The notes under the pieces were generated by a model that saw only the letters and a list, made by a program, of their open reading frames with translations, was not told the origin of the DNA and did not search any database. From Bacteriovoracaceae bacterium (lineage in GTDB: Bacteria; Bdellovibrionota; Bacteriovoracia; Bacteriovoracales; Bacteriovoracaceae), in contig JADHTQ010000002.1 of assembly GCA_016784965.1 (NCBI GenBank), positions 62,001 through 126,000 of the forward strand: a stretch of DNA of 64,000 nucleotides, in the 5' to 3' direction. The translations under genes were made by a program, and so were the position numbers. This document shows positions 46,581 through 64,000 of the stretch, piece after piece. Position 1 is the first letter of the stretch. Every line of letters starts with the position of its first letter.

Positions 46581-47153
46581 ATGAAAAAACTAACAAACTT
46601 ACTACTAATTGTGCTTTTACTATCAGTTGTAGCATGTGGTGGAGAAAGTAGTGATAACAAAATTATCAATCGAGAGGCCTATAGTGGTTCTGCTGCCCAA
46701 GAAGGTGGAGTTGGTAATGTACTATCTTCAGTGTCATGTACGCAGGGTGGATCTCGCTTTGAGCTTCGTTTTTCTGCCCCTGCAAGTAGTGATAACACCA
46801 CAGTACGTGGTCCATTTACTAGAAACCACATAGCCGGTAGTGTTACCGATGTTTATGTTGGTGTAAGTAAGCAATGGGGAGATATCATGACTGTTAGAAA
46901 GCTAGCTAACAATGGTGGCTTTAACATTACCCTATCAATGTGTACATTTGGCACCTTATTACAGCCAAATTTTAACTACAGAGATATGAGGACTAACAAT
47001 AATGGAATTATACTATATGACCATGCCAATAATACACTTGGAAGCGTAGACTCCTCTTGGGTCTACCTAACTCGTGAGACATATACTCAAAACAACACAA
47101 CTTACAGAGAAGCTGTAGTTGAAACCATCTTCACAAGAAGCGACGTTAGATAA
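46581..47153 (+). CDS. Lipoprotein, first of a tandem pair
   Basis: A 190-residue protein. The lipoprotein signal ends SVVAC followed by GGESSDNK. The mature part has two Cys (SSVSCTQGGSRFELRF and MCTFGTLL). It is about 80 percent identical by eye to the next gene, with conserved blocks RFELRFSAPAS, NTTVRGPF, NHIAGSVTDVYVG and TFGTLLQPNFNYR. No known family. GGAGGAAGAG upstream is an excellent ribosome site. Sigma-54-type promoter at 46526. Confidence 0.8.
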   Translation: MKKLTNLLLIVLLLSVVACGGESSDNKIINREAYSGSAAQEGGVGNVLSSVSCTQGGSRFELRFSAPASSDNTTVRGPFTRNHIAGSVTDVYVGVSKQWGDIMTVRKLANNGGFNITLSMCTFGTLLQPNFNYRDMRTNNNGIILYDHANNTLGSVDSSWVYLTRETYTQNNTTYREAVVETIFTRSDVR

Positions 47154-47395: not shown

Positions 47396-47962
47396 ATGAA
47401 AAGACTACTTAATGTTTTCGCAGTGCTAGTTTTACTATCGACATTAGCTTCATGTGGTGGAGACAGCTCAGACAACAAGATTGTCGACAGAGGCACCCAT
47501 AGTGGATCATTGGCCCAAGAAGATGGCGTGGGAAGTGTTTTATCTTCGGTATCATGCTCGCAGGGTGGATCAAGGTTCGAGCTTCGATTTTCGGCCCCTG
47601 CAAGTGGCGATAACACCACAGTACGTGGCCCATTTGCTAAAAACCATATCGCAGGTAGCGTTACTGATGTTTATGTTGGAGCGAGTAAGTCTTGGGGAGA
47701 TGTCATGGTGGTTAGAAAGCTTGCCAATAATGCCGGATTTAATATTACCCTGGCAATGTGTACATTTGGCACACTTTTACAACCAAACTTCAACTACCGG
47801 GAGATGAGAACAAACGGTAATGGAATCATACTATACGATCACGCAACTAATGCTGTTGGAAGTGTTGATTCTTCATATGTTTATCTAACTAGAGAGGCAT
47901 ATACGCAAAATAACACCAGCTATAGAGAAGCTGTTGTTGAGACTATCTTTGCTAGATTATAG
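47396..47962 (+). CDS. Lipoprotein, second of a tandem pair
   Basis: A 188-residue paralog of the 46581 protein. The lipobox is TLASC (L-A-S-C, consensus) followed by GGDSSDNK. The same conserved blocks and the same two Cys are present. GGAGG seven bases upstream of the start. The strongest differences are in the N-terminal 45 residues. No family recognised; export to the cell envelope and sigma-54 control are the only inferences. Confidence 0.8.
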   Translation: MKRLLNVFAVLVLLSTLASCGGDSSDNKIVDRGTHSGSLAQEDGVGSVLSSVSCSQGGSRFELRFSAPASGDNTTVRGPFAKNHIAGSVTDVYVGASKSWGDVMVVRKLANNAGFNITLAMCTFGTLLQPNFNYREMRTNGNGIILYDHATNAVGSVDSSYVYLTREAYTQNNTSYREAVVETIFARL

Positions 47963-48094: not shown

Positions 48095-49504
48095 ATGACA
48101 TTTATCGGCAGAAGCACAGAAATCAAAAAACTTAGGTCCTTGGTCAAACTACCTCACTCAACGATTGGTGTCATATATGGTCGAAGACGCGTCGGCAAAA
48201 CTACTTTGGTCAAAGAGGCATTCAAAGATCACAATGTACTATCATTTGAAGGACTAGAGGGGCAGAGTAAACAGAAACAAATCAGAAACTTTCTATCACA
48301 ACTAAAAATTCAAAGGCCAGATTGTAAACAATGCAAGGCCTCGAACTGGTCAGAAGCATTATTGTCTCTACTTCCACACATAGACTCTAGCAGTTCAACA
48401 ATAATATTTATTGATGAATTTCAATGGTTAGCAAATTATCGCAATGATCTTATTTCCGATTTAAAAATGGTTTGGGATCAATATCTCTCTAAAAGAAATA
48501 ATATAACTTTAATCCTTTGTGGCTCTATTGCATCATTTATGAAGGACAAGGTCGTTCACTCAAAAGCATTATATGGAAGAACTCACCTAACAATCAATCT
48601 ACGACCATTTAAACTTAAAGAGATTAAACTGATGCTCAAAGGTAGATCATCTCAGGAAATTATCGAGGCAAGCTTATGTCTTGGAGGAATTCCTAAATAC
48701 CTTGATCTTTTTCAATCCTATTCATCGCTACATCTTGGACTTGAAGAATTAGCATTTTCCCGGAATGGTCAACTTGTAGAAGAATTTGACAAGATATTCT
48801 TATCTCATTTTGGCAAGAATGAACATTACCAACAAATTATGCAAGTTCTTGCAAAGCACCCATATGGACTGAGCAGAAAAGAGCTTGCTAAAAAGGCAAA
48901 AATACCTGAGGGCGGACAGTTGAGCAAAGAACTCTCTGACCTTCAATCTGCTGATTTTATTATGGGACAAACACCATTTCACCATACGGTTAACTCTAGA
49001 GACATCAGGTATATTCTTAAGGACGCATACTGCCGCTTCTACTTTTCTTTCATTAAACCTAATTTAAAAGAGATAGATTACGGGCTAGAGAATATATTTT
49101 TGGATATAGTCAATACACCGGCGTACTATAGCTGGCTGGGCCGCTCTTTTGAGTATTTATGTATGGATCATGGTAAGGAACTTGCCGAATTATTGGGATT
49201 TTCTGCAGTTAAATATAGAGTCGGTCCATATTTCAAATCAAAATCACAAAGTGCAAAAGGAGTACAAATTGATCTTCTGTTTGATCGTGCAGATAATGTT
49301 ATAACGATCTGTGAAATGAAATATAGAAGTTCTCATATCGGAGTTCAAATAATTGAGGAGATTAAGAAAAAACAAGAAGTCCTTGAAAAAACCTTTAAAA
49401 AAACAATTCACAAAGTCTTGATAACCAAATCAAATCCTACACGTGAGCTCATTGATCAACACTATTTTCATCAAATTATTCAAGTTGAGCAGCTGCTAAT
49501 TTAA
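48095..49504 (+). CDS. AAA-type ATPase with DUF234-like nuclease-fold C-terminus
   Basis: A 469-residue protein. Residues about 1-230 are an ATPase_2-type P-loop domain common in archaea (FIGRSTEI at the start, Walker A GRRRVGKTT at 29-37, Walker B IIFIDEFQWL near 107-116, and a CGSIASFM sensor strand). A winged-helix part (about 245-310) follows. The C-terminus is DUF234-like with a PD-(D/E)xK pattern: QIDLLFDR (Asp393) and ICEMKYR (Glu407, Lys409). Such proteins are scattered in bacteria and often move horizontally. Biological role unknown. AGGAGG nine bases upstream of the ATG. Confidence 0.82.
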   Translation: MTFIGRSTEIKKLRSLVKLPHSTIGVIYGRRRVGKTTLVKEAFKDHNVLSFEGLEGQSKQKQIRNFLSQLKIQRPDCKQCKASNWSEALLSLLPHIDSSSSTIIFIDEFQWLANYRNDLISDLKMVWDQYLSKRNNITLILCGSIASFMKDKVVHSKALYGRTHLTINLRPFKLKEIKLMLKGRSSQEIIEASLCLGGIPKYLDLFQSYSSLHLGLEELAFSRNGQLVEEFDKIFLSHFGKNEHYQQIMQVLAKHPYGLSRKELAKKAKIPEGGQLSKELSDLQSADFIMGQTPFHHTVNSRDIRYILKDAYCRFYFSFIKPNLKEIDYGLENIFLDIVNTPAYYSWLGRSFEYLCMDHGKELAELLGFSAVKYRVGPYFKSKSQSAKGVQIDLLFDRADNVITICEMKYRSSHIGVQIIEEIKKKQEVLEKTFKKTIHKVLITKSNPTRELIDQHYFHQIIQVEQLLI

Positions 49505-49548
49505 TTAAAAGCAATAAGTTAACGCAATTTCGATTCATGTCAACCTGA

Positions 49549-49598
49549 AAACACTCATGAGTAAAGTAAGGTGCACCTTATTTTACTCATGAGTGTTT
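49549..49598. terminator. 50-bp near-perfect inverted repeat between convergent genes
   Basis: Arms of 25 bp (left from AAACACTCATGAGT, right ending ACTCATGAGTGTTT) meet at GTGCAC with no loop-out and only one G-T mismatch. It lies between the convergent stops of the ATPase gene and the giant-protein operon. It should act as a bidirectional transcription barrier, though no T-tract follows directly. Confidence 0.65.
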
Positions 49599-49624
49599 CC
49601 TGGGTATGTGATTAAATGATATTC

Positions 49625-52600
49625 CTATTTTTTCTTATAAAAGATCGGGTAAGCGGTCTTTTTATAACGTTTTGTCAATAAACGAAATAGAGACGTTTCT
49701 GAGTCCGGATTAATCTCACTACCAACTGCGCCCCTTTTAACGTTTCGGTTTCTAAGGCTATTTTTATACCTATCCTCAGCAGATTGAAATTCAGCATTAC
49801 CCATGCCATCCAAACCAGAATCATCGCCATCTCCTACGACACTTCCACTACCAAATCCACCGGCGCCAAAACCATCACTCAAGTCGCCATAATCGTCTTC
49901 ATCGTCAAATTCACCGCCTCCAAACTCGGAGCCATCTACCCCTTGAGCCGTCTCCATGCTCTGCAGGGCCTTAGGATCGCCTTTTATATTTGCTGCATCT
50001 TTAAGTATGGAGCTACTAGATAGTGAACCAAAGCTTTTGACGTTCCCTTTGGGTCTATATTTATTGCTTTTAGAAGCTGTACTCATATTGAGGAATTTAT
50101 CGAAGTCTCCCCCCTTCTTTAGGTCGTTGATTGTTGCTAGCCTCATTGCTGCGACCATTTTTCTGCCACGGTTCCTAGCTTCTCTGCCGGACGAGATACC
50201 CCCATCGGTACCAGTTTTTGCCTTTATATCACTCATAGTCTTGCGAATTAGATGTTTCATCGCCTCAATTTGCTGTCCCACTGGAGAGTGAGGATTTACA
50301 GTTCCAAACCTTGATAGACTAAGGGAAGACTTTCTTGCTGAGGCTGCAGAGGATGATCCCATGCCCTTTTTCCCAAATCTACCACCACGGCCACCGCCCA
50401 TAGCAGTACTTCCACCAGCACCTAAGTTCACATTGCTGCGGCCCAAAGCACTGCCACCAGGACCACCTGCTCCTGCTCCACCTGCTCCGATACCACCTGC
50501 ACCTGATCCAGCACCGCCTGCTCCAGCACCACCTAGAGCTACTGAAGAACTCCCAGATCCAGAAGCACCGCCAGTGCCTGCACCACCACCAAGTCCGCCA
50601 ATTCCTCCCAGTCCATCAGAACCGGCACCACCTGCTCCGGCACCTCCTGCTCCAGCACCTCCTGCTCCAGCACCTCCTGCCCCAGCACCTCCTGCACCAG
50701 ATCCTCCTGCACCACTGCCACCACCGGCACCACCACCTAAGGTGTCTGAGCCTACACCACCTAATCCATTAATGCCGGCCATACCCGGTCCACCGCCTGC
50801 ACCGTCTAAACCAGACCCTCCTAAGCCTCCTGCGCCTAAACCACTTCCCGAGGTGTCACCTAGAGCATCTAATCCTCCGTCGGTTATATCAGTGTTACCA
50901 AAGTCAAATGTAGTTCCATCATTTGTATCAAACTGAGCTATGACTTCACCGAAACCATCGTCATAAGAGTCTGCATCATCAAGGGCATCCATCATATCTG
51001 TCATTGAGTCTTGCCCTTGAGCTTCTACCATTCCTAAAAACTCTGCTCGAACTTCAGGTACCTCAAACGATAATCTCGACTGTGTCATAGCAGTTATTCT
51101 ATGTTGTCGATAATATTGAAATGCTTTAGAACCTTTCATAACTCCAAGGCTGGCTTCGAGTTTCTCTACAGTGTCCATTTTTTTCACATCATTGCCGTCG
51201 GCAGGGGCATCACCCGCAGCATACGCACTAGTGACCATAAAATCTGTGATACGCCCTGAGATAAATTTTGCTTTTTTAGAGAGGTTGCCCATAAGATCAT
51301 ATGTATATGGCAGTGAAGATCTTGCTCCATTTAGGATTCTAGATAAATCTAAAACTTTTATATACGCATTTAATCCCTCTTCACGATTGTTATGACTTGA
51401 TAGAGTCATTACACTCATCATGAAAATATCTTCTCCCCACTTATCTTCAAATTCAGCAAGTTGTTGCTCATACAGCAACTCCGCTTTTTGTAAAGAATCG
51501 ATCTGGGCGCGATACTGTGCTTTATTTAAAAACTCTGGTCGTAAAGTTACATCATTGCCCTCACTATCACTTTCAGGTGGGGGATCTTCTTTTTTATATC
51601 CAGGCCCAGGACCAGATGCTGGGAGTGTTTTCATCAAATTATCTGTCCCCTTTAGTACTGATAGCGGACAGTTAAGTCCAGCACCAGGACTTGTAGCGCC
51701 ACACCTCATGTGCCCATGGATGTTGGCTGCTACCTTTTCCTTACTGGCCTGATCTTTCCCTTTCATTGCTTTAAACATCTCCATCAACATAAACCCCATC
51801 ATTACAATTGACATTACGGATGTTACATCTTTGAGGAAACTTTTTGCTTTTGCTGCCCTATGTGCAGATATGTTTGCATTACATTTAGCTGCTGCTGCTG
51901 CTGGACACGTACCTGCGTAAGCCTTATCAACCAAGGTACCTGTTACTGCATCAATTGCATTATCTTTAAGCTGATTAATAAAGGTAGTTTTTTGTTTATC
52001 ATTATCAATTGGAGTAAGTAGTAAAGATGACTCCTCCGGCAGGGTTGGCAATATAAAGGATAAATCTGGATTCCATTGTTTTTTAGTATTTGGGTCTTTG
52101 CGTCTGGGATTTCTTGTTATTGGCTTACCTCTATTAGTTTCATAATACTGACCATAACGACTACCATCAGCACCAACTGTTACATTTTTGGTTGGTCGGA
52201 TCGGATAAGCTTCCCCCGCACCCTTGTCAAATTCCCACAACTCTGGGGGATCTCCTACCCATTTTCTTTTTACAGCGTCTCCGGTAGAGCCATCCATATA
52301 AGATTGAGCTTCTGCTCTTGAAAAAGAAGTATCAGGCGTCATTCCATCCCCTGATGGAGAAGGTTTTTTCATCGGTGGTGGATCTGGTAAATTATCACGG
52401 GCCTTTTGTGCCTGATCTGCAATTTTTTGCTCTTGCTGCTTGAGATGCTCCTTATACTTTTCAACATGTGCCTCTTGTTTTGCTTGAGTCTTTTCAATTT
52501 TTTCCTCTACAGCTTCTTTCTTGGTTTCAGCTCTTTGCTCTTTTTTAGAACAAGCAGAAACCGATCCTCCACCCTCTGCAGGGATACCACATGCCTTACA

Positions 52601-54205
52601 AGAAAAATTTTTCATCTCTTGTGTCTTGTCACAAACCTTTGCAGTTGCCTTTTCTTCCCCAATATTTAGGTTAGAAATCATATTGGCCATTTGCAGGGCC
52701 ATCATCGCCATCTGCATGATCTGCATAGTGTTGTCTTCTGCTTCTTCTGCGTTCTCTTGTCTGGCTTCAGCTGTCTCAATCTCCTGTTCGGCAACCATTC
52801 TGACATAAGTCATCATTTGCGCCATTGAGTCTTTGCCCTGTTGCAAAGTCTCGGAAGACTTTACCATTTCCTCGCGAAGCATCTTGGCTCGTTGCAAATT
52901 TTCTACTTGATTATTCATTGTTTGATTGGGGTCAATATCAGTTTCCATAATCCTATCGGCAGCATCACTGTAATCAGTGGCATCGATCATTTGACTGGCA
53001 ACATATATCGATGCCGCTGCGGTGTAGAGATGGTATGAAACACAGCGAACATCACTAATATCTTGGCAACAAAGATCAAATGCGGCTGAGGCCATAACTC
53101 CTGTTTGCTCAGCATTTTTTACACCTGAAATTCTCATGTCACCCATCATGGAATTGGTTAACATATAGTCACTATTTAACGCACCAATTGACTCCATCGC
53201 TTTTTGCCTTGCCTGCCTGGCCAGTGCAATGGCAACATTTGATCTCTCATTTATTTCGCTAAGTAGACCTGCCACTGCCTGAAAGGTTTTTTCGCGGGTT
53301 TCATTGGCCGAGTTTTGTATTTCCGTTGTACCTGAAACAGAATCCTCTGCAGTACTTTGAGCATCATGAGTTCCAGCATTTAAGTCATCTGCCCTTTGCG
53401 CCATATCATCTATTCGAGCACTGGGATCTCTGGCCTTTTTTAGGTCATTACAAATTTGCCCACAACTAGCACCCTCTTGCCCTTCTCCACTTGAGCGTCC
53501 AGCACAGGCCCGACAACTGCAGTTACTCTCCTCACATGCTTGATGTAATTGTGCAATTTTAGTACTTCTTCCCATCATATTGTCTCTGGCTTTAGCATAA
53601 GTTTCATCTGCCGCTGATTTTAAGCCATCACCATCATCTTTTAACCCACTAGCTGCATCACTTACCGCACTAGTTGCATCAGCTAAATTGGTTGTGAGTG
53701 ATCTCAAAGCAGCGATATTTTCTGCTTGCTTGGTCATAAGCTGCGCCTTACAGGCTTCATAAAATAGCTTCAGGGCTTCGGCCTTTAATATTTGAGACTC
53801 CATCCTTTGTTCATCTGTGGCGAGTAACTTCGAACCCTTGTCATTAAAGAGGTTGAGTTTGCCAATATTATTAAGAGCACCTTCATTTTTGTCACTAAGC
53901 CCGGGAACACCAACTGTTTCAAATCTCGGAGCATCTTCATTATTATCTGATCCTCTATCTCGTGCACTTTCTGCAGCCTCCCTGTTTCGAGAAGCATCAG
54001 AGTCTGACTGACCTCTTGGAGTACGTTCGCTGGTGTCTGACCCTCTATTTCGGGCTCTTTGCGCAGCTTGTCTATTCCTAGATGCAGCATTGTCTGGTCT
54101 GATACCCCTTAAGGCATACGCGACTGAGGGTTGCAGTTGCCAAAAAAACAGACAATAGCACAGTACAATGGTTGTAGTACTTTTCATAAATGATTGGAAA
54201 TTCAT
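49625..54205 (-). CDS. Giant secreted repeat protein A (1526 aa), last gene of paralog operon
   Basis: Signal peptide residues 1-31 (CYCLFFWQLQPSVAYA). Residues 40-94 hold two copies of a 24-residue motif (ASRNR.AA..AR.RGSD..E..PR) absent from the paralogs. Conserved blocks follow: LFYEACKAQLMTKQ (147-160), a Cys cluster (224-252), FDLCCQDISDVRC (376-388), MTYVRMVAEQEIETAEA (465-481), a Met-rich helix (495-512), WNPDLSF (711-717), a hydrophobic helix (793-812), HGHMRC (830-835), SLPYTYDL, a Gly/Ala array (about 1105-1262), and a C-terminal RY..AYPIFY motif (1513-1523). No known family. AAGGA upstream supports the start. Surface or periplasmic structure is inferred. Confidence 0.85.
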   Translation of the reverse strand: MNFQSFMKSTTTIVLCYCLFFWQLQPSVAYALRGIRPDNAASRNRQAAQRARNRGSDTSERTPRGQSDSDASRNREAAESARDRGSDNNEDAPRFETVGVPGLSDKNEGALNNIGKLNLFNDKGSKLLATDEQRMESQILKAEALKLFYEACKAQLMTKQAENIAALRSLTTNLADATSAVSDAASGLKDDGDGLKSAADETYAKARDNMMGRSTKIAQLHQACEESNCSCRACAGRSSGEGQEGASCGQICNDLKKARDPSARIDDMAQRADDLNAGTHDAQSTAEDSVSGTTEIQNSANETREKTFQAVAGLLSEINERSNVAIALARQARQKAMESIGALNSDYMLTNSMMGDMRISGVKNAEQTGVMASAAFDLCCQDISDVRCVSYHLYTAAASIYVASQMIDATDYSDAADRIMETDIDPNQTMNNQVENLQRAKMLREEMVKSSETLQQGKDSMAQMMTYVRMVAEQEIETAEARQENAEEAEDNTMQIMQMAMMALQMANMISNLNIGEEKATAKVCDKTQEMKNFSCKACGIPAEGGGSVSACSKKEQRAETKKEAVEEKIEKTQAKQEAHVEKYKEHLKQQEQKIADQAQKARDNLPDPPPMKKPSPSGDGMTPDTSFSRAEAQSYMDGSTGDAVKRKWVGDPPELWEFDKGAGEAYPIRPTKNVTVGADGSRYGQYYETNRGKPITRNPRRKDPNTKKQWNPDLSFILPTLPEESSLLLTPIDNDKQKTTFINQLKDNAIDAVTGTLVDKAYAGTCPAAAAAKCNANISAHRAAKAKSFLKDVTSVMSIVMMGFMLMEMFKAMKGKDQASKEKVAANIHGHMRCGATSPGAGLNCPLSVLKGTDNLMKTLPASGPGPGYKKEDPPPESDSEGNDVTLRPEFLNKAQYRAQIDSLQKAELLYEQQLAEFEDKWGEDIFMMSVMTLSSHNNREEGLNAYIKVLDLSRILNGARSSLPYTYDLMGNLSKKAKFISGRITDFMVTSAYAAGDAPADGNDVKKMDTVEKLEASLGVMKGSKAFQYYRQHRITAMTQSRLSFEVPEVRAEFLGMVEAQGQDSMTDMMDALDDADSYDDGFGEVIAQFDTNDGTTFDFGNTDITDGGLDALGDTSGSGLGAGGLGGSGLDGAGGGPGMAGINGLGGVGSDTLGGGAGGGSGAGGSGAGGAGAGGAGAGGAGAGGAGAGGAGSDGLGGIGGLGGGAGTGGASGSGSSSVALGGAGAGGAGSGAGGIGAGGAGAGGPGGSALGRSNVNLGAGGSTAMGGGRGGRFGKKGMGSSSAASARKSSLSLSRFGTVNPHSPVGQQIEAMKHLIRKTMSDIKAKTGTDGGISSGREARNRGRKMVAAMRLATINDLKKGGDFDKFLNMSTASKSNKYRPKGNVKSFGSLSSSSILKDAANIKGDPKALQSMETAQGVDGSEFGGGEFDDEDDYGDLSDGFGAGGFGSGSVVGDGDDSGLDGMGNAEFQSAEDRYKNSLRNRNVKRGAVGSEINPDSETSLFRLLTKRYKKTAYPIFYKKK
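50621..50719 (-). repeat. 15-bp tandem repeats coding Gly-Ala units in giant protein A
   Basis: Six or so units of 15 bp coding for GAGGA/S in tandem (residues 1163-1195). Unit length is a multiple of three, so recombination alters length but not frame. Confidence 0.9.
53924..54088 (-). repeat. Duplicated 24-residue segment after the signal peptide
   Basis: Two copies encode ASRNR(Q/E)AA(Q/E)(R/S)AR(N/D)RGSD at residues 40-63 and 71-94 of giant protein A only. Confidence 0.85.
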
Positions 54206-54238
54206 CTCATTATCCTTAATTAAAAGTTTTTCACCTAA

Positions 54239-57200
54239 CTATTTAGCGCTTTTGACATCTTTAGTTTTTTTCTCACTTTTAATGTCTAAACGAGTATATG
54301 CGCTTTTATTATATCTTTTTGTCACTATAACAAATATTGACACATCCTTGTTTTTGCTTATCTGTGCGTCTTTGAGACTAGAAATTTTGTCACCACTTAA
54401 TCCCTGTAAACTCTTTCTATTTCTAAATTTTAGGCTTTCTAGATTTGCCAAATCCTTTAGGCTATCTAAACTGTCAAAATCAAAGTCCATATCCACAGAT
54501 ACGTTACCATCTCTAAGTGAGTTAAAACCGTTTATATCGACAAGATCCAGTCCTTCATCCCCGAAGTCGAATTCAAGCTCCTGTTCTTCCACAACACTAA
54601 CTTCTTGACCACCTGCTGAACCTGAACCTTTAGCTCCTTTTGTTGAGCCACTTCCATCACTGCCTGATCCGCTACCGGAGCCAATTCCAGAACCACTACC
54701 GGACCCTGAACCAATACCGCTGCCCGATCCACTACCAGAACCACTTCCTGAACCGGTACTACTAATTAGTGATCCCAAGCCTACATCATTTTTATCTGCA
54801 TCTTTGGCAAGCTTACCATTCATGAAATCTTCAAACGTCCCTTTTTGCTTCATGATACCAACTGTCGCCTCTCGCATCGCCGCTAAAATTTTCTCTCCCC
54901 TACCCCTTACATCTGAATCACTTGATATTTTACCCATACTTCCATCGACGCTCCATAATCCTTTTTTGGTATTTTCAATAAGCTTTTTCATAGCTTCAAT
55001 CTGTGCGCCGACTGGTGAGTTTGGATATAGGGTACCCCTGCTTGACATTCTTCGAGCCGAATTTCTCGCCGTTGCAGAGGTTGATGATCCTATTCCCTGT
55101 CGCCCATATCTTCCACCGGTTTGTGTGCTACCCCCTGCACCTAAAGTTACATTGGACCTACCTGCGCCGCCGCCACCTATACCATGAACGCCTTTACCGT
55201 TGATATCAGCCATACCGCCGATACTTCCTGCACCGCCTGCTGATCCTCCAGCACCTCCGCCTCCAGCACCTCCGCCTCCAGCACCTCCGCCTCCAGCGCC
55301 TCCAACACCAGCACCTCCAGCACCTCCGCCTCCAGCGCCTCCAACACCAGCACCTCCCGCCCCACCGGTTCCACTACCACCACTAGCTCCACCTGCACCT
55401 TGACCACCTATACCGGCCATACCTCCAATACCACCTGCTCCTCCAGAACCCCCAGTGCCGGCTCCGTTGATACTATCTGCGCCTACGCCAGTCAATGCAA
55501 GGCCCTCTCCACTTCCAGCACCAGAGCCTGATCCAAGTGAGTCGTCTCCAACAGTACCCAAGTTACCAGCTGAACCAGAACCCCCTCCCAGAAGACTCCC
55601 TAAACCATTATCACCAAAACCTCCTGTATCCAGTGCGCTCGTACCTGTTAGTCCCCCTGTAGGAATGCCTGCTGTTGTATCTACCCCTAATGCATTTAAA
55701 CCACCCGTATCTACATCGAAGTCGTCAACTGATCCCATCGCTAAGTCATTGCCAAGCTCCATATTTACTGCATTTACTTCAAACTGATCCAGTATATTAC
55801 CAAAATGATCGTCGTATAAAGACGCATCATCTATGGCATCCATCATATCTGTCATTGAAAACTGCCCTTGTGTCTCAACCATACTTAAAAAATCTGCCCT
55901 CGATTGTGGTACCTCAAATGAGATTTTCGATAGAGTTGTAGCAGTTTTTCTATGTTCTTCATAATATGTGAAGGCCTTGGTTCCTTCCATCACACCAAGA
56001 CTTTTTTCCAGCTCAGCTATCTTTTTTAAAGCTTCATTTTTGCTACTGGCAGGAGTTGAAGAACTTGCAGCATATGCATGTGAAGCCATTAAGCTGGTTA
56101 AGCGATTTGTTAGAAATTTTGCCTTGTCTGTAAGAGCACCTAACAAATTATAAGTATATGGCAGTGAAGAGTTGGCACCATTTATGGTTCTTGAAAGATT
56201 GAGTACCTTGATATAGTGATCGATACCACTATCGTTGCGCTCTCGTACACTGGAGCGAACCAATAGTTCCATCATAAAAATATCGCTGCCCCAAAGCTGC
56301 TCAAATTTCGCTAATTTTTCATGGTAATCGCGCAACACCTCCTCCCTAACATCATCACTCACCGAAGTAGTTGTTGGTGCCTCTTCTTCTGAGCCATTTA
56401 ATGGTTGCCCATATTGCTTTTGTTCTGTAGGTGGAATAGTTTCCATGAGATGTTCAGCACTGTTTAACGTTGCCAGAGGGCAGGTTAGTCCCGCACCAGC
56501 TTCAGTTTTATCACACCTCATATGTCCGTGAATGCTTGCTGCTGTAACTTCTTGTGCGGCTTGCTTTGCTCCTATAAGTCCTTTAAGCATCTGCCCTAAC
56601 TGAAATGCCATCATTGCAATCGAAGCTAAAGATAATATATCCTGTGCTTTTGTAAAACCACTTGCTTTTAGAGCATTTGCATTTAATCCTGCACATATCC
56701 CCGGAGTAACACATGCACAAGGAGCACAATAAGCATACACATTTGAACCAAAGATAAGATTAGTTATTGCATCGGCTGTCTTATTGCACATGTTGTATAC
56801 ATATGACTGATCCTCGGGGGCAGGAGCTAAAAATGATAGATCAGGATTCCATTGTCTCTTTACTGGGCCTCTATAGTTTGAAGAATCAAAACTGTTGGGA
56901 TTATAGGATTCCTCATTTAACGCCGCATTCATCAACTCTTCATTCTTTGGGCATTTGTCACCACAATAAAAATTAGCACTAGCTTTTGTCAACGCATCCT
57001 GTCGTAGTTTTTGTTGCATTTGCTGTGATGCTTGAGCTGCTTGTGAAATGTTGGCACTTCCCGAGTCACCAGATAAAAATCCCGCAGCCCCTGCTACTCC
57101 TGCAACTACCGTCCCTGTTGTCATAGCTCCTTCAATTGCACCAATTGCTCCCGGCGCTGAAAGAAACTGGCCAGGGGATGAAAGAAACTGGCCTGCAGAT

Positions 57201-58897
57201 GACAAGCCTGATGATATACTGGTGCCTACACCTTTGACTCCATTTGATATCAGTTCAGGAGCATTGGCAACTGTATCGACTGCTTTGCTCCCAAATGCTT
57301 TTACACCGTCCACAAAATTGGTAACTTTCTCTTTAACGGCTTCAATCGCACTTTCTATCCCTTTTTTAATCGAGGTTGTAATGCCCTGCTTTGCTCCAGA
57401 TTCTGCTGTCGTCTGCTGAGTTTTTGCATTGTCAGCTTCACATACAGGTGAAGGATTTGGACAGGGGGCACAGCACGTACTACAGACTGATATCGCACTT
57501 TTGCATTCGGCAGATTCTGAAATATTATATAGGTTCTCTTTAACTACATCTAAATTGTTAACCATCTGAGCTACCTGTAATGCCATTCCAAGCATTTGCA
57601 TCATCTGTCCAGCATTCTCATCAGCTGCCTCAGCATTATCCGCTCTTGCTTCTGCAGTCTCAATCTCCTGCTCTGCAACCATTCTTACATAAGTCATCAT
57701 CTGGACTAATGAATCCTTGCCCTGCTGGACAATTTCTGCTGACTTCACAATTTCTTCGCGAAGCAGCTGTGCTCTTTTTATATTTGCCCTTTGGTTATCC
57801 ATATCATCGCCAAGTTTTTTTTCCATTATGGCCTTTGCGGCACTACTGTAATCACTAGCATCTAGTATTTGGCTAGCAACATAAATAGACGCTGCGGCAG
57901 TGTACAAATGATAAGAAACACATCGAACATCACTTATATCGTGACAACATAGATCAAATGCTGCTGATGACATAACTCCCGTTTGCTCGGCATTACCGAT
58001 GCCCGAGATTCTTAAATCTGCCATCATTGCATCTGTTACTTTGTAGTCACTATTTATCGCACCAATGGCATCCATTGCCTTCGCTCTGGCCTGTTTTGCC
58101 TTTTTTATGGCCACACTCGCTCTCTCATTTATTCCTTGAATCATTGCATGAACTGCCTGCAAGGTGCCTTCTCGTGTTTCACTGGTTGAATCCATAACAT
58201 CACTACTACCCACAACTGCACCTTGAGCTGTACTTTGGGCCTGGTGAGATCCAGATGAAAAATCCTTGGTCTTTTGCTGAAGCGCTGCTATCTGTGCTTT
58301 TTCACTCTTCTCATATGCAAATTTTTTGCAGATTGTATTTCTACAGACGTCTCTATCTGGATTGGTATTAATATTAAATGGATTATTTTCTCGACATACT
58401 GATCTATCCCCTAAACGCTCACATGCATTACAGCAACAATTTTTTTCTCTACATTGCGTTCTCAAATCTGCAAGAAGCTTCTGACGATCCTTGGAAGTTT
58501 GCCTTACAGTACCCATGGCGGATCCCGCAGCACTTTGCATTTGTGTATTGGAAGAGTTTAGCCCCTCTGAGGTCTCATTTACTTCATCGGTTGCGTCTGC
58601 CAAATCGGTTGTAAGAGATTTAAGAGCGGAAAGGTTTTCTTTCTGCTTTGTCATAAGTTGCGCCTTACACGCCTCATAAAATAACTTTATGGCTTCTGCT
58701 TTTAGTTTTTGAGACTTTTGTCTTTGAGCATCTGTAGTAAATAACTTACTACCCTTTTTAGAAAACAAATTAAGCTTACCAATGTTATCCAGAGCGGCTT
58801 GATCTGCATAAACTACAGATGGTTGCAGTTGCCACATAAATAAGCAATAACAAATAAGGAGGCTCAAAGCTCTCCGACCAAATGAAAAATTATTCAT
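54239..58897 (-). CDS. Giant secreted repeat protein B (1552 aa)
   Basis: Signal peptide residues 1-31 (CYCLFMWQLQPSVVYA). Shares with A and C: LFYEACKAQLMTKQ (73-86), a Cys-rich region (149-190; eight Cys), FDLCCHDISDVRC (314-326), MTYVRMVAEQEIETAEA (401-417), a Met-rich helix (431-446), a second Cys cluster (465-486), WNPDLSF (683-689), CVTPGIC, a hydrophobic helix (753-773), HGHMRC (790-795), SLPYTYNL, a Gly/Ala array (1090-1258), a Ser-Gly run (1381-1420), and the C-terminal motif IVTKRYNKSAY (1524-1534). Unlike A and C, a basic 18-residue tail follows. AGGA is eight bases upstream; ten-base gap after C. Confidence 0.85.
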   Translation of the reverse strand: MNNFSFGRRALSLLICYCLFMWQLQPSVVYADQAALDNIGKLNLFSKKGSKLFTTDAQRQKSQKLKAEAIKLFYEACKAQLMTKQKENLSALKSLTTDLADATDEVNETSEGLNSSNTQMQSAAGSAMGTVRQTSKDRQKLLADLRTQCREKNCCCNACERLGDRSVCRENNPFNINTNPDRDVCRNTICKKFAYEKSEKAQIAALQQKTKDFSSGSHQAQSTAQGAVVGSSDVMDSTSETREGTLQAVHAMIQGINERASVAIKKAKQARAKAMDAIGAINSDYKVTDAMMADLRISGIGNAEQTGVMSSAAFDLCCHDISDVRCVSYHLYTAAASIYVASQILDASDYSSAAKAIMEKKLGDDMDNQRANIKRAQLLREEIVKSAEIVQQGKDSLVQMMTYVRMVAEQEIETAEARADNAEAADENAGQMMQMLGMALQVAQMVNNLDVVKENLYNISESAECKSAISVCSTCCAPCPNPSPVCEADNAKTQQTTAESGAKQGITTSIKKGIESAIEAVKEKVTNFVDGVKAFGSKAVDTVANAPELISNGVKGVGTSISSGLSSAGQFLSSPGQFLSAPGAIGAIEGAMTTGTVVAGVAGAAGFLSGDSGSANISQAAQASQQMQQKLRQDALTKASANFYCGDKCPKNEELMNAALNEESYNPNSFDSSNYRGPVKRQWNPDLSFLAPAPEDQSYVYNMCNKTADAITNLIFGSNVYAYCAPCACVTPGICAGLNANALKASGFTKAQDILSLASIAMMAFQLGQMLKGLIGAKQAAQEVTAASIHGHMRCDKTEAGAGLTCPLATLNSAEHLMETIPPTEQKQYGQPLNGSEEEAPTTTSVSDDVREEVLRDYHEKLAKFEQLWGSDIFMMELLVRSSVRERNDSGIDHYIKVLNLSRTINGANSSLPYTYNLLGALTDKAKFLTNRLTSLMASHAYAASSSTPASSKNEALKKIAELEKSLGVMEGTKAFTYYEEHRKTATTLSKISFEVPQSRADFLSMVETQGQFSMTDMMDAIDDASLYDDHFGNILDQFEVNAVNMELGNDLAMGSVDDFDVDTGGLNALGVDTTAGIPTGGLTGTSALDTGGFGDNGLGSLLGGGSGSAGNLGTVGDDSLGSGSGAGSGEGLALTGVGADSINGAGTGGSGGAGGIGGMAGIGGQGAGGASGGSGTGGAGGAGVGGAGGGGAGGAGVGGAGGGGAGGGGAGGGGAGGSAGGAGSIGGMADINGKGVHGIGGGGAGRSNVTLGAGGSTQTGGRYGRQGIGSSTSATARNSARRMSSRGTLYPNSPVGAQIEAMKKLIENTKKGLWSVDGSMGKISSDSDVRGRGEKILAAMREATVGIMKQKGTFEDFMNGKLAKDADKNDVGLGSLISSTGSGSGSGSGSGSGIGSGSGSGSGIGSGSGSGSDGSGSTKGAKGSGSAGGQEVSVVEEQELEFDFGDEGLDLVDINGFNSLRDGNVSVDMDFDFDSLDSLKDLANLESLKFRNRKSLQGLSGDKISSLKDAQISKNKDVSIFVIVTKRYNKSAYTRLDIKSEKKTKDVKSAK
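54638..54757 (-). repeat. Ser-Gly tandem repeat in giant protein B
   Basis: A Ser-Gly run with GIGSG interruptions (residues about 1381-1420), near the C-terminus. Low complexity; in frame. Confidence 0.85.
55241..55372 (-). repeat. Gly-rich tandem repeats in giant protein B
   Basis: Units of 15 bp (AGCACCTCCGCCTCC on the plus strand) and longer copies with an inserted GAGVGG, coding for residues about 1176-1219. Confidence 0.88.
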
Positions 58898-58907
58898 CCC
58901 ACCTATC

Positions 58908-61900
58908 CTATTCTTCCTCGTACACTAGAGGGTACGCTGTATCCCGGTAACGTTTACTTACTATTTTAAAAAGAGATCTTTGCCTATCTAGGTTTATCTC
59001 TTGTGGCTTTTTCTTTTTGCCGCCTTTACCGAGTTTTTCTTGTAAACTTCTTCTATATCTTTGCTGAGGAGTTTCTAATTTTTTTAAATTTTTCAGACTA
59101 TCTAAAGTTTCATCAAAGCCTATGCCACCTCGCCCTCTACTATCCTTTGAAAGAGCAAATCCTCCGCCATCATCACCAAAATCGCCAAATCCTCCGCCAT
59201 CATCTTCGAAGTCAAATCCTCCATCGTCATCATAACCTTGCTTACCATCACCAGAGCCTGAACCAGATCCTCTTGCTCTACGACTTGAACTTGCACTGGC
59301 ACTAGAGTCTTTGCCACTTCCTGCACCTATCCCAGAAGAAATCCCAGATCCGCTGCCAAATCCGCTGCCAGAGCCGCTTTTACCGGACCTGCCTCTTCTT
59401 CCCCTTCTACCTTTTTTACCCCTAGAAGCTAATTTGTCGTCATCGGAGTCTTTGTATTTTCCGGCCTTTTTCAAAGCATCGATTGTCGCTTGGTTCATGT
59501 GGTCCAAGATTTTTTTACCACGCTTGGTGACATCATTATGGGATGAAATTCGCCCCATATTGCCATCAACGCCCAGTAGACCCTTTCTGGTATTTGCAAT
59601 CAGGTTTTTTATTGCATCTATTTGTTTACCTACTGGTGAGTTGGGATTTATGGTTCCCATTTTAGACATATTTTGTGCTGACCTTCTTGCTGAAGCTGAA
59701 GTGGAGTGACCCCGCCCTTTACCGCCGCGTCCTCTGCCACCTACACGAGAGCTTCCTCCAGCACCTAAGTGCACATTAGTTCTGCTGCCGCCTGCAACAA
59801 CACCTCTACTGCTGCCTGACATGCCTCCAATTCCACCCATGCCTCCTCTTTGGCCCGCGCCCCCTGCGCCACCTATACCAGCTCCACCCTGCCCAGATCC
59901 TGCACCTTGTGAGCCATTCATGCCACCAATTCTACCCGTACCATTTACTCCAGATCCACCTCGAGAATCAACCCCCACACCTGTTCCATCTATGCCGCCA
60001 ATACCACCCATACTGCTACCTGGAGTCCCGCCAACTAAGTTATCTCCTCCAACACCATTTTGTGTACCTCCAGGTCCAATAGAATCATCTGCTAATCCTC
60101 CCAGTTCCCCTTCTGTTATCGATGATACACTCCCCAAACCACCACCTGAAGTGTCATCTACAACTGATTCGAGACCACCCGCTGCTACATCAAAGTCCGA
60201 ATCAGTATCTGTAATATCAATATTACTGTCTCCAAGATCCATGCTTGTACCATTTGGGTCAAAATTATCTATGAGTTCCTCAAAATGATCATCGTATAGG
60301 CTAGAATCATTTAAGGCGTCTAACATGTCGTCCATAGCAGATTGCCCTTGACTCTCAACCATTCCTAAATATTCGGCCCTGGACTCTGGTACCTCAAATG
60401 AGCTGCGAGACAGGGTTGTCGCAGTACTTCTATGTTGCTGATAAAACTCAAATGCTTTTGAGCCTTCCATCACACCTAGACTTTTTTCAAGTTCTGCAAC
60501 TGTTTTTAAGGCCTCACTTTCGCTACTAGTTCTAGCGGCATAACTCTTTGATGCCAGCAAGTCAGTTACACGACCTGCTAGAAAACTGGCCTTGTTTTTA
60601 ACTGATTCCAATACGTTGTAGTTGTGTGGCAGAGAAGACACTGCACCGTTAATCAATCTCGAAAGATCTAGCACTTTGAGGTATTCACCAAATCCTTTAT
60701 TTTTTTCACGCAGACCAACCTGAACCAGAAGGTCCATCATAAAAAGATCATCCCCCCATTTTTTCTCAAAAGCTGTAATCTGTTTTTGAAACTCTGACTC
60801 TATATCCTCGATACTTTTTCTATCAACTGGATCAAAAAAAGTAGTCGTATTTCCATCTGGTGCACTTCCATACTTAGAGGTCTGCTCCGTCGGCTCTATT
60901 GTATCCAAAAGATTGTCGGTACTATTTAGCACCGATAAGGGACAAGTTAGACCCGCACCGGCCTTTGTTTCACCACACTTCATATGTCCATGAATATTTG
61001 CTGCCAATTGTTCTTCGTGGGCCTGCTCTTTTCCCTTCATTCCCTTTAACATTTGCAGCAGTTGAAAGGCCATCATTGCAATGGATAGTACAGACAATGC
61101 GTCTTGTATGTTTGTTTGCGCACTAGCCGCTGAGGCAGCTGAGTTAGCAGCGGCACAAGGTGCCACGCAGGTACAAGAACATCCACAAGCTTTTGCAGTT
61201 GGACCAATTATAAAATCACTCAAGACATCCACTGTATCATTACAAACTCCAGACAAAAAAGATGGCTTTTTATAATCAAACATTGGAGTCATCGGTGCTT
61301 TTGGACTTGGTAGATATGATAAATCTGGATTCCATCGCTTCTTAACTGGAGCCTTATAAGGCAGCTCATCACTGAGAAGCACCTCATTTTTTGTGGTATT
61401 ATCCAACGCTTCCACTGCATCATCTGCCGCTGCCCCGCCTCCACTGTCATCACTAGCCTCACCTCCACCTCCACCTTGAAGCATCTGCATTCCTTGCATG
61501 GCCATCCCCCCTAATTGAGCGGCTTGTGAGGCTGTAGAAACAAATGATTGACCGGCAAGTTCTCCCACCTTACCAGCTGCAGTGCTGGCCGCTTTTCCTA
61601 TGGCATCAGTGGCCTTACCGGTTAGCTCTGCCGTCTTGCTCATTAGAGTGCTAGAAGTTGCGGACGTTGAAGCTTTCTTGGCTGCCTGTTTTGCTTTTGT
61701 CGCATTACTCTTAGCATTGTCTGCTTCACATGTGGGAACCATGACGGGTGGACAACCGCATATACAAGAAGCTTGCACTACTCCTTTTTTTGCCTGTTCC
61801 GTGGTATTTAACATCATCTCTTTAACTACATCGAGCTTACTAATCATCTGTGCCATCGATAGGGCCATCTGTAACATTTGCATCATCTGATTTGCGTTTT

Positions 61901-63209
61901 GACTGGCAGCTTCTGCATTATCCTGCCTTGCTTCTGCCGTCTCAATTTCTTGCTCGGCCACCATTCTTACATAGGTCATCATCTGCGTAATTGAGTCTTT
62001 TCCTTGCTGAAGAGTCTCAGCCGATTTCACGATTTCTTGCCTTAAAAGTTGAGCTTTTTTTAAGTTTTCAACTTGGTCATTCATTTCCTGATTGGGATCA
62101 ATATCTGTTGCCATGATTTCCTTGGAAGCACTACCATAGTCACTTGCATCCAAGATTTGGCTGGCAACATAAATTGAAGCCGCAGCTGTATACAGATGGT
62201 AAGAAACGCAGCGAACATCGCTAATGTCCTGACAACAAAGATCAAATGCTGCTGAGGCCATAACTCCCGTCTGCTCAGCATTTCCTCTACCAGCAATCCT
62301 GATATCTTCCATCATTGCATGAGTTAATTTATAGTCACTATGTACCGCACCTATTGCCTCCATGGCCTTTACTCTTGCCTGCTTTGCCAGACTAATTGCT
62401 GTCTCAGCTCTTTCATTAGTTTCAACAATCATAGCTTGAACGGCCTGAAAGGTTGCTTCTCTTGTGAGGTTGGTAGAATTCATAACATCTGTAGTACCTA
62501 CCACTGCATCCTGAGCTGAGTTTTGAGCACTGCTTGTTCCAGCTTGAAAATCCTTTGCCTTTTGTTCCATGGTTCTAATACGCGCCTGTTCGCTTTTTTC
62601 ATAGGCATAGTCTTTACAGACAGTGTTGTTGCAATATGCTCTGTTGGGATTTATATTATTTCCAAATGGGTCTCTACAAACTGATTCATCACCTCTGCCT
62701 TCACAAGTAGAGCAGCAACAGTTTTTAGTCCTACACTCCTCTCTTAATCCAGCAATTCGCGCTTTACGTGCATCTGAAGTTGCCCTGACAGTCGAAGTAG
62801 CCTCCGATGCCGCTGGATCTAATCCACTGGCAGTAGTGTCAAGGCCACTAGTTGTCGCATTAACAGTTGCAGTGGCATCAACGAGGTTGCTAGTTAACGA
62901 TTTTAAGGCGCCAATATTTTCTTTTTGTTTAGTCATCAGCTGGGCCTTGCAAGCTTCATAAAACAACTTCATCGCCTCAGCTTTTAACTGTTGTGACTTC
63001 TTTCTTTGAGCATCAGTTGCCAGAAGCTTCCCACCTTTTTCAGAAAACAGATTGAGTGTACCAATGTTTTCTAGTGCTGCATTTGAATCTGACGTTTCTG
63101 ATACTGACTCACCAGCAGCGTATACTATAGAGGGTTGTAACTGCCATAAAATCAAGCAGTAACAGAGAACCAAACTAGTTATTCGATGAATGATAGATCG
63201 ATTTTTCAT
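58908..63209 (-). CDS. Giant secreted repeat protein C (1433 aa)
   Basis: Signal peptide residues 1-32 (CYCLILWQLQPSIVYA). Same plan as A and B: LFYEACKAQLMTKQ (83-96), Cys-rich region (159-198), FDLCCQDISDVRC (322-334), MTYVRMVAEQEIETAEA (411-427), Met-rich helix (441-455), CICGCPP, WNPDLSY (626-632), a CGCSCTC cluster (675-681), hydrophobic helix (703-721), HGHMKC (740-745), LSRLINGAVSSLPHNY, a shorter Gly array (about 1020-1160), a basic and Ser-Gly region (1255-1325), and the terminal motif IVSKRYRDTAYPLVYEEE. GGAG seven bases upstream supports the ATG. Confidence 0.85.
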   Translation of the reverse strand: MKNRSIIHRITSLVLCYCLILWQLQPSIVYAAGESVSETSDSNAALENIGTLNLFSEKGGKLLATDAQRKKSQQLKAEAMKLFYEACKAQLMTKQKENIGALKSLTSNLVDATATVNATTSGLDTTASGLDPAASEATSTVRATSDARKARIAGLREECRTKNCCCSTCEGRGDESVCRDPFGNNINPNRAYCNNTVCKDYAYEKSEQARIRTMEQKAKDFQAGTSSAQNSAQDAVVGTTDVMNSTNLTREATFQAVQAMIVETNERAETAISLAKQARVKAMEAIGAVHSDYKLTHAMMEDIRIAGRGNAEQTGVMASAAFDLCCQDISDVRCVSYHLYTAAASIYVASQILDASDYGSASKEIMATDIDPNQEMNDQVENLKKAQLLRQEIVKSAETLQQGKDSITQMMTYVRMVAEQEIETAEARQDNAEAASQNANQMMQMLQMALSMAQMISKLDVVKEMMLNTTEQAKKGVVQASCICGCPPVMVPTCEADNAKSNATKAKQAAKKASTSATSSTLMSKTAELTGKATDAIGKAASTAAGKVGELAGQSFVSTASQAAQLGGMAMQGMQMLQGGGGGEASDDSGGGAAADDAVEALDNTTKNEVLLSDELPYKAPVKKRWNPDLSYLPSPKAPMTPMFDYKKPSFLSGVCNDTVDVLSDFIIGPTAKACGCSCTCVAPCAAANSAASAASAQTNIQDALSVLSIAMMAFQLLQMLKGMKGKEQAHEEQLAANIHGHMKCGETKAGAGLTCPLSVLNSTDNLLDTIEPTEQTSKYGSAPDGNTTTFFDPVDRKSIEDIESEFQKQITAFEKKWGDDLFMMDLLVQVGLREKNKGFGEYLKVLDLSRLINGAVSSLPHNYNVLESVKNKASFLAGRVTDLLASKSYAARTSSESEALKTVAELEKSLGVMEGSKAFEFYQQHRSTATTLSRSSFEVPESRAEYLGMVESQGQSAMDDMLDALNDSSLYDDHFEELIDNFDPNGTSMDLGDSNIDITDTDSDFDVAAGGLESVVDDTSGGGLGSVSSITEGELGGLADDSIGPGGTQNGVGGDNLVGGTPGSSMGGIGGIDGTGVGVDSRGGSGVNGTGRIGGMNGSQGAGSGQGGAGIGGAGGAGQRGGMGGIGGMSGSSRGVVAGGSRTNVHLGAGGSSRVGGRGRGGKGRGHSTSASARRSAQNMSKMGTINPNSPVGKQIDAIKNLIANTRKGLLGVDGNMGRISSHNDVTKRGKKILDHMNQATIDALKKAGKYKDSDDDKLASRGKKGRRGRRGRSGKSGSGSGFGSGSGISSGIGAGSGKDSSASASSSRRARGSGSGSGDGKQGYDDDGGFDFEDDGGGFGDFGDDGGGFALSKDSRGRGGIGFDETLDSLKNLKKLETPQQRYRRSLQEKLGKGGKKKKPQEINLDRQRSLFKIVSKRYRDTAYPLVYEEE

Positions 63210-63230
63210 CCTACATCTCCAAATTAAATT

Positions 63231-64000
63231 CTATTCCATGACATCATAGAAGATGGGGTACGCACTTTGTTTGTATCGTTGTGTTACTATTTTAAATATA
63301 GATGTTTCAGCGTTTTGATTAATTTCTGCCGTATCAAACTTCCCATCTTTTTTATTTCGTGCAAGCAAATTTCGTCTATATCTTTCTTCCGCACTAAGTC
63401 CGCCGCCTTCATTATCACCAAATCCCTCGGCGTTTATTCCTCCACGGCCATAGTCATCTTTTGAGTTACTAAAAGAGTCGCCACTGTCCATATCTCCAAA
63501 TGCGTCGCCATCACCATCGCCATAATCGTCTGAATAATCCCCATCATCGAAAGCATCTTCAGCTTTCTCTGCTTCATATGGGCCTGCAGCTGTCTTTCCA
63601 CCGCTACCGGACGAATAGTCAGATGAAGAGCCACCTGTAAGTGACCCCAAACTACCAACATTCCCCTTGGGTCCACGATACTTTCTTTTGCCCTTTGCCA
63701 ATTGCCGCATTTTCATCAACTCATCAAATTTACCATCTCTTTTTAATTTCTCTATTGAAGCCTGTCTCATCACTGCTAAAATCTTGGATCCCTTCTTTCT
63801 AACGTCCTCATCAGAAGTGAGTCCACCAAGTCTCCCATCCTGCTCCATCAGACCTTTTTTAGTCTTGTCAATTAGAGCTTTCATCGCCTCAATTTGTCTA
63901 CCCATCGGTGTGTTAGGATTCAAGGTCCCCATTTTTGATATATTTTTCATTGAGTTTCTGGCCGATGCCGATGTTGAGCCCATACCTTTTCTACCAGACT
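63231..64000 (-). CDS. C-terminal part of a fourth giant paralog (cut by window edge)
   Basis: At least 255 residues, open to the window edge. The first complete codons read SGRKGMGSTSASARNS, matching the AFTER-array segment of A (GKKGMGSSSAASAR), so the Met at 63983 is internal. Conserved GTLNPNTPMGRQIEAMK, a basic region, an acidic Gly/Asp-rich stretch, ERYRRNLLARN and the terminal IVTQRYKQSAYPIFY motif are present. It is the upstream neighbour of C with a 21-base gap. The full gene and the operon promoter lie beyond position 64000. Confidence 0.85.
   Translation of the reverse strand, partial: SGRKGMGSTSASARNSMKNISKMGTLNPNTPMGRQIEAMKALIDKTKKGLMEQDGRLGGLTSDEDVRKKGSKILAVMRQASIEKLKRDGKFDELMKMRQLAKGKRKYRGPKGNVGSLGSLTGGSSSDYSSGSGGKTAAGPYEAEKAEDAFDDGDYSDDYGDGDGDAFGDMDSGDSFSNSKDDYGRGGINAEGFGDNEGGGLSAEERYRRNLLARNKKDGKFDTAEINQNAETSIFKIVTQRYKQSAYPIFYDVME

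Follow-up and report, generated by a model that had tools for sequence, protein, structure and literature searches.

A fourfold array of giant Cys-rich paralogs and a C-terminal tag widespread in the Bacteriovoracaceae

The four-gene array and its borders

The window analysed here, a stretch of 64,000 nucleotides (contig C76:62001-126000), ends in exactly four tandem paralogous genes on the minus strand, transcribed in the order P1, P2, P3, P4. Open reading frames and alignment define P2 (1433 aa; 58908..63209), P3 (1552 aa; 54239..58897) and the array's last gene, P4 (1526 aa; 49625..54205). P1 (1423 aa) enters the window only with the 3′ part of its frame (63231..64000) and is completed just beyond the edge, running to C76:129502 (L005:232-4503). 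In transcription order, the intergenic gaps measure 21 bp (P1/P2), 10 bp (P2/P3) and 33 bp (P3/P4). The preliminary description of three complete tandem frames, a partial fourth and these gaps is thus borne out, with the fourth frame completed in the assembly. Its count of ‘at least four’ narrows to four, as the next upstream gene is unrelated. A purine-rich, Shine-Dalgarno-like stretch before an ATG closes each of the three gaps, and P1 to P4 are likely to share one transcript. The array cannot be a product of chance, given long uninterrupted frames and the conservation of protein sequence across four copies, and the plus-strand Pro-rich frames that overlap it are shadows of the Gly/Ala array.

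On the 5′ side of P1 lie a small unrelated ORF, then genes on the other strand, one of them Fic-like by its HPFxxGNGRTGR motif, and then the cluster for cell division and cell wall (dcw) with ftsW, murD, mraY, murF, murE and ftsI, as judged from their sequences. On the opposite side, a near-perfect palindromic hairpin of ∼24 bp (49544..49598, found by folding) separates the P4 stop codon from a convergent plus-strand ATPase gene. The intergenic stretch 49505-49625 folds at -39.9 kcal/mol, and the hairpin is a probable terminator shared by the two genes. The palindrome exceeds an ordinary terminator stem in length and was unreported by a terminator scan. The convergent gene (48095-49504) encodes an ATPase_2/DUF234 ATPase, a family described mainly from Archaea. 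Also beside the array, on the plus strand, are two tandem, closely similar, small lipoprotein-like genes (46581-47153 and 47396-47962; 190 and 188 aa); a Pfam search with the 190-aa protein returned no match.

Anatomy and relatives of the paralogs

All four paralogs follow the same plan. A signal sequence at the N-terminus leads into a long stretch of helices, then a core that is nearly invariant, then variable Cys segments. Met-rich helices, IHGHM(R/K)C and a FEVPxxRA region come next, followed by a Gly-rich stretch and, at the C-terminal end, a helical block and the tail. Overall identity between paralogs is 44-54%, rising to as much as 86% in the core, where GNAEQTGVMASAAFDLCCxDISDVRCVSYHLY and residues 300-365 are 80-86% identical. 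In P2, the conserved helical core (residues 300-440; 61890..62312, minus strand), which begins GNAEQTGVMASAAFDLCCQDISDVRCVSYHLY, is common to distant homologs in other genera, and the IHGHMKC motif (60975..60995, minus strand) is kept as IHTHMxC in a distant single-copy family. The Gly-rich region spans residues 1005-1377 of P2 (59079..60197) and has counterparts in P4 (50294..50971) and, as a Gly/Ser-rich region, in P3 (54527..55753), all on the minus strand. Several motifs had been proposed as common to the paralogs. HGHM(R/K)C is indeed shared, but the signal-sequence core [CS]YCL..WQLQPS..YA reads CYCL in three copies and SYCL in P1, WNPDLS occurs in P2, P3 and P4 and is missing from P1, and the C-terminal AYP is replaced by AYT in P3. 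In the first Cys segment, P1 pairs with P4 (54%) and P2 with P3 (56%), against 24-37% for the other pairings, a pattern that implies more than one duplication in the growth of the array.

The signal peptides and the abundance of Cys agree with the earlier assignment of these proteins as secreted or envelope-associated. AlphaFold models of P2 residues 32-1060 and 1140-1433, built from an alignment of the paralogs only, are all helical, and the tail is drawn as a helix at ∼45 pLDDT. Their mean pLDDT of 32 and 48 gives no confident fold and limits their weight to secondary structure.

The paralogs belong to no recognised family, as first described. In Pfam, no match reached the cut-off. The sole NCBIfam match, FEA1_rel_lipo to P3, scored 27.9 bits against a cut-off of 250 and was set aside as low-complexity Gly/Ser similarity. 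A PDB sequence search gave one hit only (E 0.64) and hence no relative with a solved structure, and the tail's own matches there, to hydroxylases and phage baseplate proteins at E 0.34 or higher, were attributed to chance. A conjugation or VirB6-like reading, prompted by the giant tandem membrane-type proteins, was dropped, with no Pfam support and no conjugation neighbours by eye.

A first scan of genome contigs and a scan of viral contigs with the window paralogs found no relative, and phage and plasmid collections gave no match. Among 130 Bacteriovoracaceae genomes, a paralog profile (E 1e-10) matched at full length only in the window's own genome and in the core alone in three others; a weaker search recovered core homologs in several genera. 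The carriers named in a genome-contig search are Halobacteriovorax marinus and Bacteriovoracaceae UBA3083, supporting the view that the paralog family is confined to one lineage that includes known predators. The expectation of always-tandem copies fails, because homologs in the relatives are distant, scattered and mostly single, and these single copies have no Gly array. The giant fourfold array is found in this genome only and is absent from the other 129.

Type A, a single-copy family of about 900-1300 aa (e.g. L138, Halobacteriovorax marinus), matches the window paralogs over 281 aa (hhalign 98.7%, E 3.4e-16), a relationship that BLAST also detects. The two share a homologous helical core, the IHTHMxC motif and the C-terminal tag described below. 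Type A has retained both a hydrophobic hairpin with Cys and a CxC Cys module, whereas the window paralogs have no such module before the linker, carry their last Cys no later than residue 846, and are set apart by Met-rich helices, the Gly array and fourfold tandem duplication. In several genera, the neighbours of type A are a small Cys-containing exported protein, a cyclic-nucleotide-binding-like protein, a Clp-type ATPase and an MscS channel. Against the type B, OG2 and giant groups of tagged proteins, the window group reaches an hhalign probability of at most 6.1%.

A C-terminal tag and the proteins that carry it

Among the proteins recovered by the paralog search were some whose match was confined to the last ∼40 residues. 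The RY..AYP motif, at first noted as shared by the paralogs, is part of a C-terminal tag in the last ∼30 residues that runs through the Bacteriovoracaceae and also marks unrelated proteins predicted to be exported. Its core is [SN]-[IL]-[FW]-K-I-[IVL]-[ST]-x-R-Y-x-K-[ST]-[AG]. On the minus strand of the array, the tag occupies 63234..63326 in P1 (EINQNAETSIFKIVTQRYKQSAYPIFYDVME), 58911..59000 in P2 (EINLDRQRSLFKIVSKRYRDTAYPLVYEEE), 54242..54364 in P3, where it ends in AYT and a Lys-rich extension, and 49628..49717 in P4 (EINPDSETSLFRLLTKRYKKTAYPIFYKKK). The tag search was run in six frames and was blind to stop positions; all 67 distinct tails in the fetched loci end 0-18 residues from a stop codon. 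Near-invariant positions are Arg (63/65 tails), Tyr (64/65) and Phe or Trp (65/65), frequencies that are somewhat inflated because both ends of the motif belonged to the pattern that collected the 65; profile hits are unaffected. The ∼100 residues before the tag contain no Cys and no Trp, are rich in Gly, Ser, Lys and Asp, and probably form a disordered linker. The tag itself has an amphipathic-helix pattern (helical hydrophobic moment z = +4.3; beta-type moments z about -4.5), which suggests that it is helical, and a search of the tails for hydrophobic or transmembrane segments found none. No other part of the tagged proteins is as conserved or as strictly placed.

A profile of 21 tails found 294 tag copies in 56 of 59 sampled genomes of the family, with a median of 5 per genome, and a broader profile found the tag in 124 of 130; the few genomes of the family in which the tag is absent or degenerate are G003, G032, G062, G204, G205 and G233. 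The genome studied here has 20 copies. Outside the family, the broader profile matched 35 of 240 genomes of the phylum, mostly singly and marginally, with clear single copies in one genus of family f12. Closer inspection of the weak matches identified several from outside the family, and some from family genomes that had seemed tail-less, as variants of the tail at or near the C-terminus. Short tandem runs also occur among other tagged genes (three in L172, two in L044). A literature search, with most subscription papers outside its coverage, returned no description of such a tag in the Bacteriovoracaceae.

Tagged groups were compared by hhalign after removal of the tail. Type A, type B, OG2 and the proteins of ∼2000 aa form a mosaic superfamily linked largely by a Cys module, C...G..D..C.C.....C. 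Because most large tagged proteins share this module, much of the tag's spread could reflect shared descent rather than independent acquisition. Three groups share the tail only: small proteins of 222-281 aa, an L,D-transpeptidase protein and f12 proteins of ∼300 aa. None of these exceeds a probability of 3.5% against any other group, which favours a transferable tag. The tagged L,D-transpeptidase protein (genome G002) matches YkuD_2 at E 9.9e-47, a domain whose enzyme class implies a periplasmic location. Examples of the small, exported-looking proteins, which match no Pfam family, are L109:9688-10533, L111:3320-4033, L113:9102-9770 and, in the window's own genome, L033:9025-9711. The tagged ∼2000-aa proteins come from three genera and have no recognised domain (L153:155-6298, L154:167-6172, L155:123-6236).

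Hydropathy points to export of the tagged proteins and to their topology. For example, the signal sequence is the sole hydrophobic segment of the tagged type OG1 (534-616 aa), whose C-terminus and tag should therefore lie on the exported side. Gene neighbours are also conserved. A VanY D,D-carboxypeptidase gene lies directly downstream of a tagged gene on the same strand in at least 34 genomes (median tag-to-domain distance 107 bp), and a DCC1-like thiol-disulfide oxidoreductase does so in at least 21 (median 65 bp), both counts being minima among the matches listed. These neighbours place the tag in the context of the cell wall and of Cys-rich envelope proteins.

Particular gene sets recur at these loci. 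A tagged Cys-rich membrane-type protein followed by VanY is seen at L107:4633-7192, L118:8387-11007 and in at least 32 further genomes across the family. A conserved trio (L034:8609-11412, L119:8408-11449, L123:8371-11178) comprises a tagged protein without further hydrophobic segments, the DCC1-like oxidoreductase and a glycosyltransferase-like gene. Beside type B tagged proteins lies a conserved gene pair (L043:10950-12998, L044:12453-14548, L045:7712-9802), one member of which has an RFT.QYTEFELP.GW motif, a hydrophobic segment and a poly-Lys C-terminus.

Possible roles of the tag

The best reading of these observations is that a tag at the C-terminus, for docking or sorting, recruits exported, Cys-rich envelope proteins. 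The four genes would then be a lineage-specific tandem expansion within a Bacteriovoracaceae family of large, Sec-exported, Cys-rich and mostly helical envelope proteins, each ending in a long Cys- and Trp-free linker and an amphipathic tag of ∼30 residues. The tag would be a transferable signal carried by exported proteins of several unrelated kinds, some of them linked to peptidoglycan. After export, the flexible tail would search for and dock on one common periplasmic or outer-membrane receptor, and this putative receptor would bring the tagged proteins together at a single envelope site or machine. No receptor for the tag was found, and we put the chances about evenly for and against a docking tag of this kind, in which a linker and an amphipathic helix with an Arg-Tyr signature are bound by a common envelope receptor. 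Docking peptides on disordered linkers are familiar from the C-terminal peptide of FtsZ, the tip of SSB and encapsulation peptides, all of which combine a flexible linker with a short, conserved, hub-binding motif as proposed for the tag. These peptides act in the cytoplasm or inside compartments, whereas the tag sits on exported proteins of many families.

In the main rival reading, a cleavable tail would direct proteins to the outer membrane or across it: after Sec export, a sorting enzyme or translocon would recognise the C-terminus, as it does type IX secretion (T9SS) CTDs or PEP-, GlyGly- and MYXO-CTERM tags. These CTERM tags, too, are short C-terminal signals on many differing Sec-exported proteins of one lineage, with several to dozens per genome, and the Bacteriovoracaceae tag likewise sits at the C-terminus of several exported proteins per genome (67 of 67 tails; median 5). 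The T9SS CTD is similar in pairing a Sec signal peptide with a conserved export signal at the C-terminus. Exported proteins of diverse kinds that combine an N-terminal signal peptide with an obligatory signal at the C-terminus, several per genome and throughout the family, make up the same many-to-one pattern that revealed the CTERM systems (PMC1569441, PMC3237569). However, a tripartite CTERM consists of a signature motif, a transmembrane helix and a basic cluster (PMC11980579), whereas the tag is an amphipathic segment with neither the hydrophobic helix nor the basic cluster. The T9SS CTD folds as a beta-sandwich domain and is confined to Bacteroidetes (PMC4804311, PMC5445135); the tag is far shorter, at ∼30 aa, and its hydrophobic moments are those of a helix. 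An NCBIfam scan of ten tagged proteins (maximum E 1) matched no CTERM model, and no sortase partner is known for the tag. The known tags pair with dedicated enzymes, PEP-CTERM with exosortase, GlyGly-CTERM with rhombosortase and MYXO-CTERM with myxosortase. Overall, we consider a cleaved signal possible, if somewhat doubtful.

A further proposal concerns the paralogs themselves and is compatible with every interpretation of the tail. A secreted structure of four subunits, adhesive or fibrous and close to the adhesive or co-assembled parts suggested in the preliminary description, would account for the tandem array, the Gly-rich arrays and the signal peptides. It gained no supporting evidence: the array is present in one genome only, relatives are single, distant and devoid of the Gly array, and Pfam, NCBIfam and PDB searches found no adhesin, fibre or secretion-partner domain. 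We therefore judge it unlikely. Alternatively, the tail may be a plain tether, an amphipathic helix lying on the periplasmic face of a membrane with no receptor. Its helix pattern and Lys/Arg-rich flanks would suit this role, but the near-invariant Arg-Tyr and the constrained positions exceed the specificity that a membrane-binding helix usually requires, which makes a tether quite improbable. Least probable is that the tail has no tag function and is a remnant of common descent within one large mosaic superfamily; the shared Cys module does link most large tagged proteins, but at least three tagged groups, including the L,D-transpeptidase, share nothing else with the rest, and the tail is the most conserved and most strictly placed part.

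On the docking reading, the Bacteriovoracaceae would possess an undescribed form of envelope targeting, in which a non-tripartite tag of ∼30 residues steers from a handful up to about twenty clients, exported, rich in Cys and in part linked to peptidoglycan, to a common receptor, and in which one client has here expanded fourfold; we hold this to be an even call. PEP-CTERM and related sorting systems were themselves found through such many-to-one C-terminal tags (PMC1569441, PMC3237569). The tag occurs in nearly every Bacteriovoracaceae genome, is rare or marginal elsewhere in the phylum, and marks a mostly unannotated set of proteins predicted to be exported. It makes that set searchable in a family that includes predators, and the putative receptor would be testable in cultivable Halobacteriovorax.
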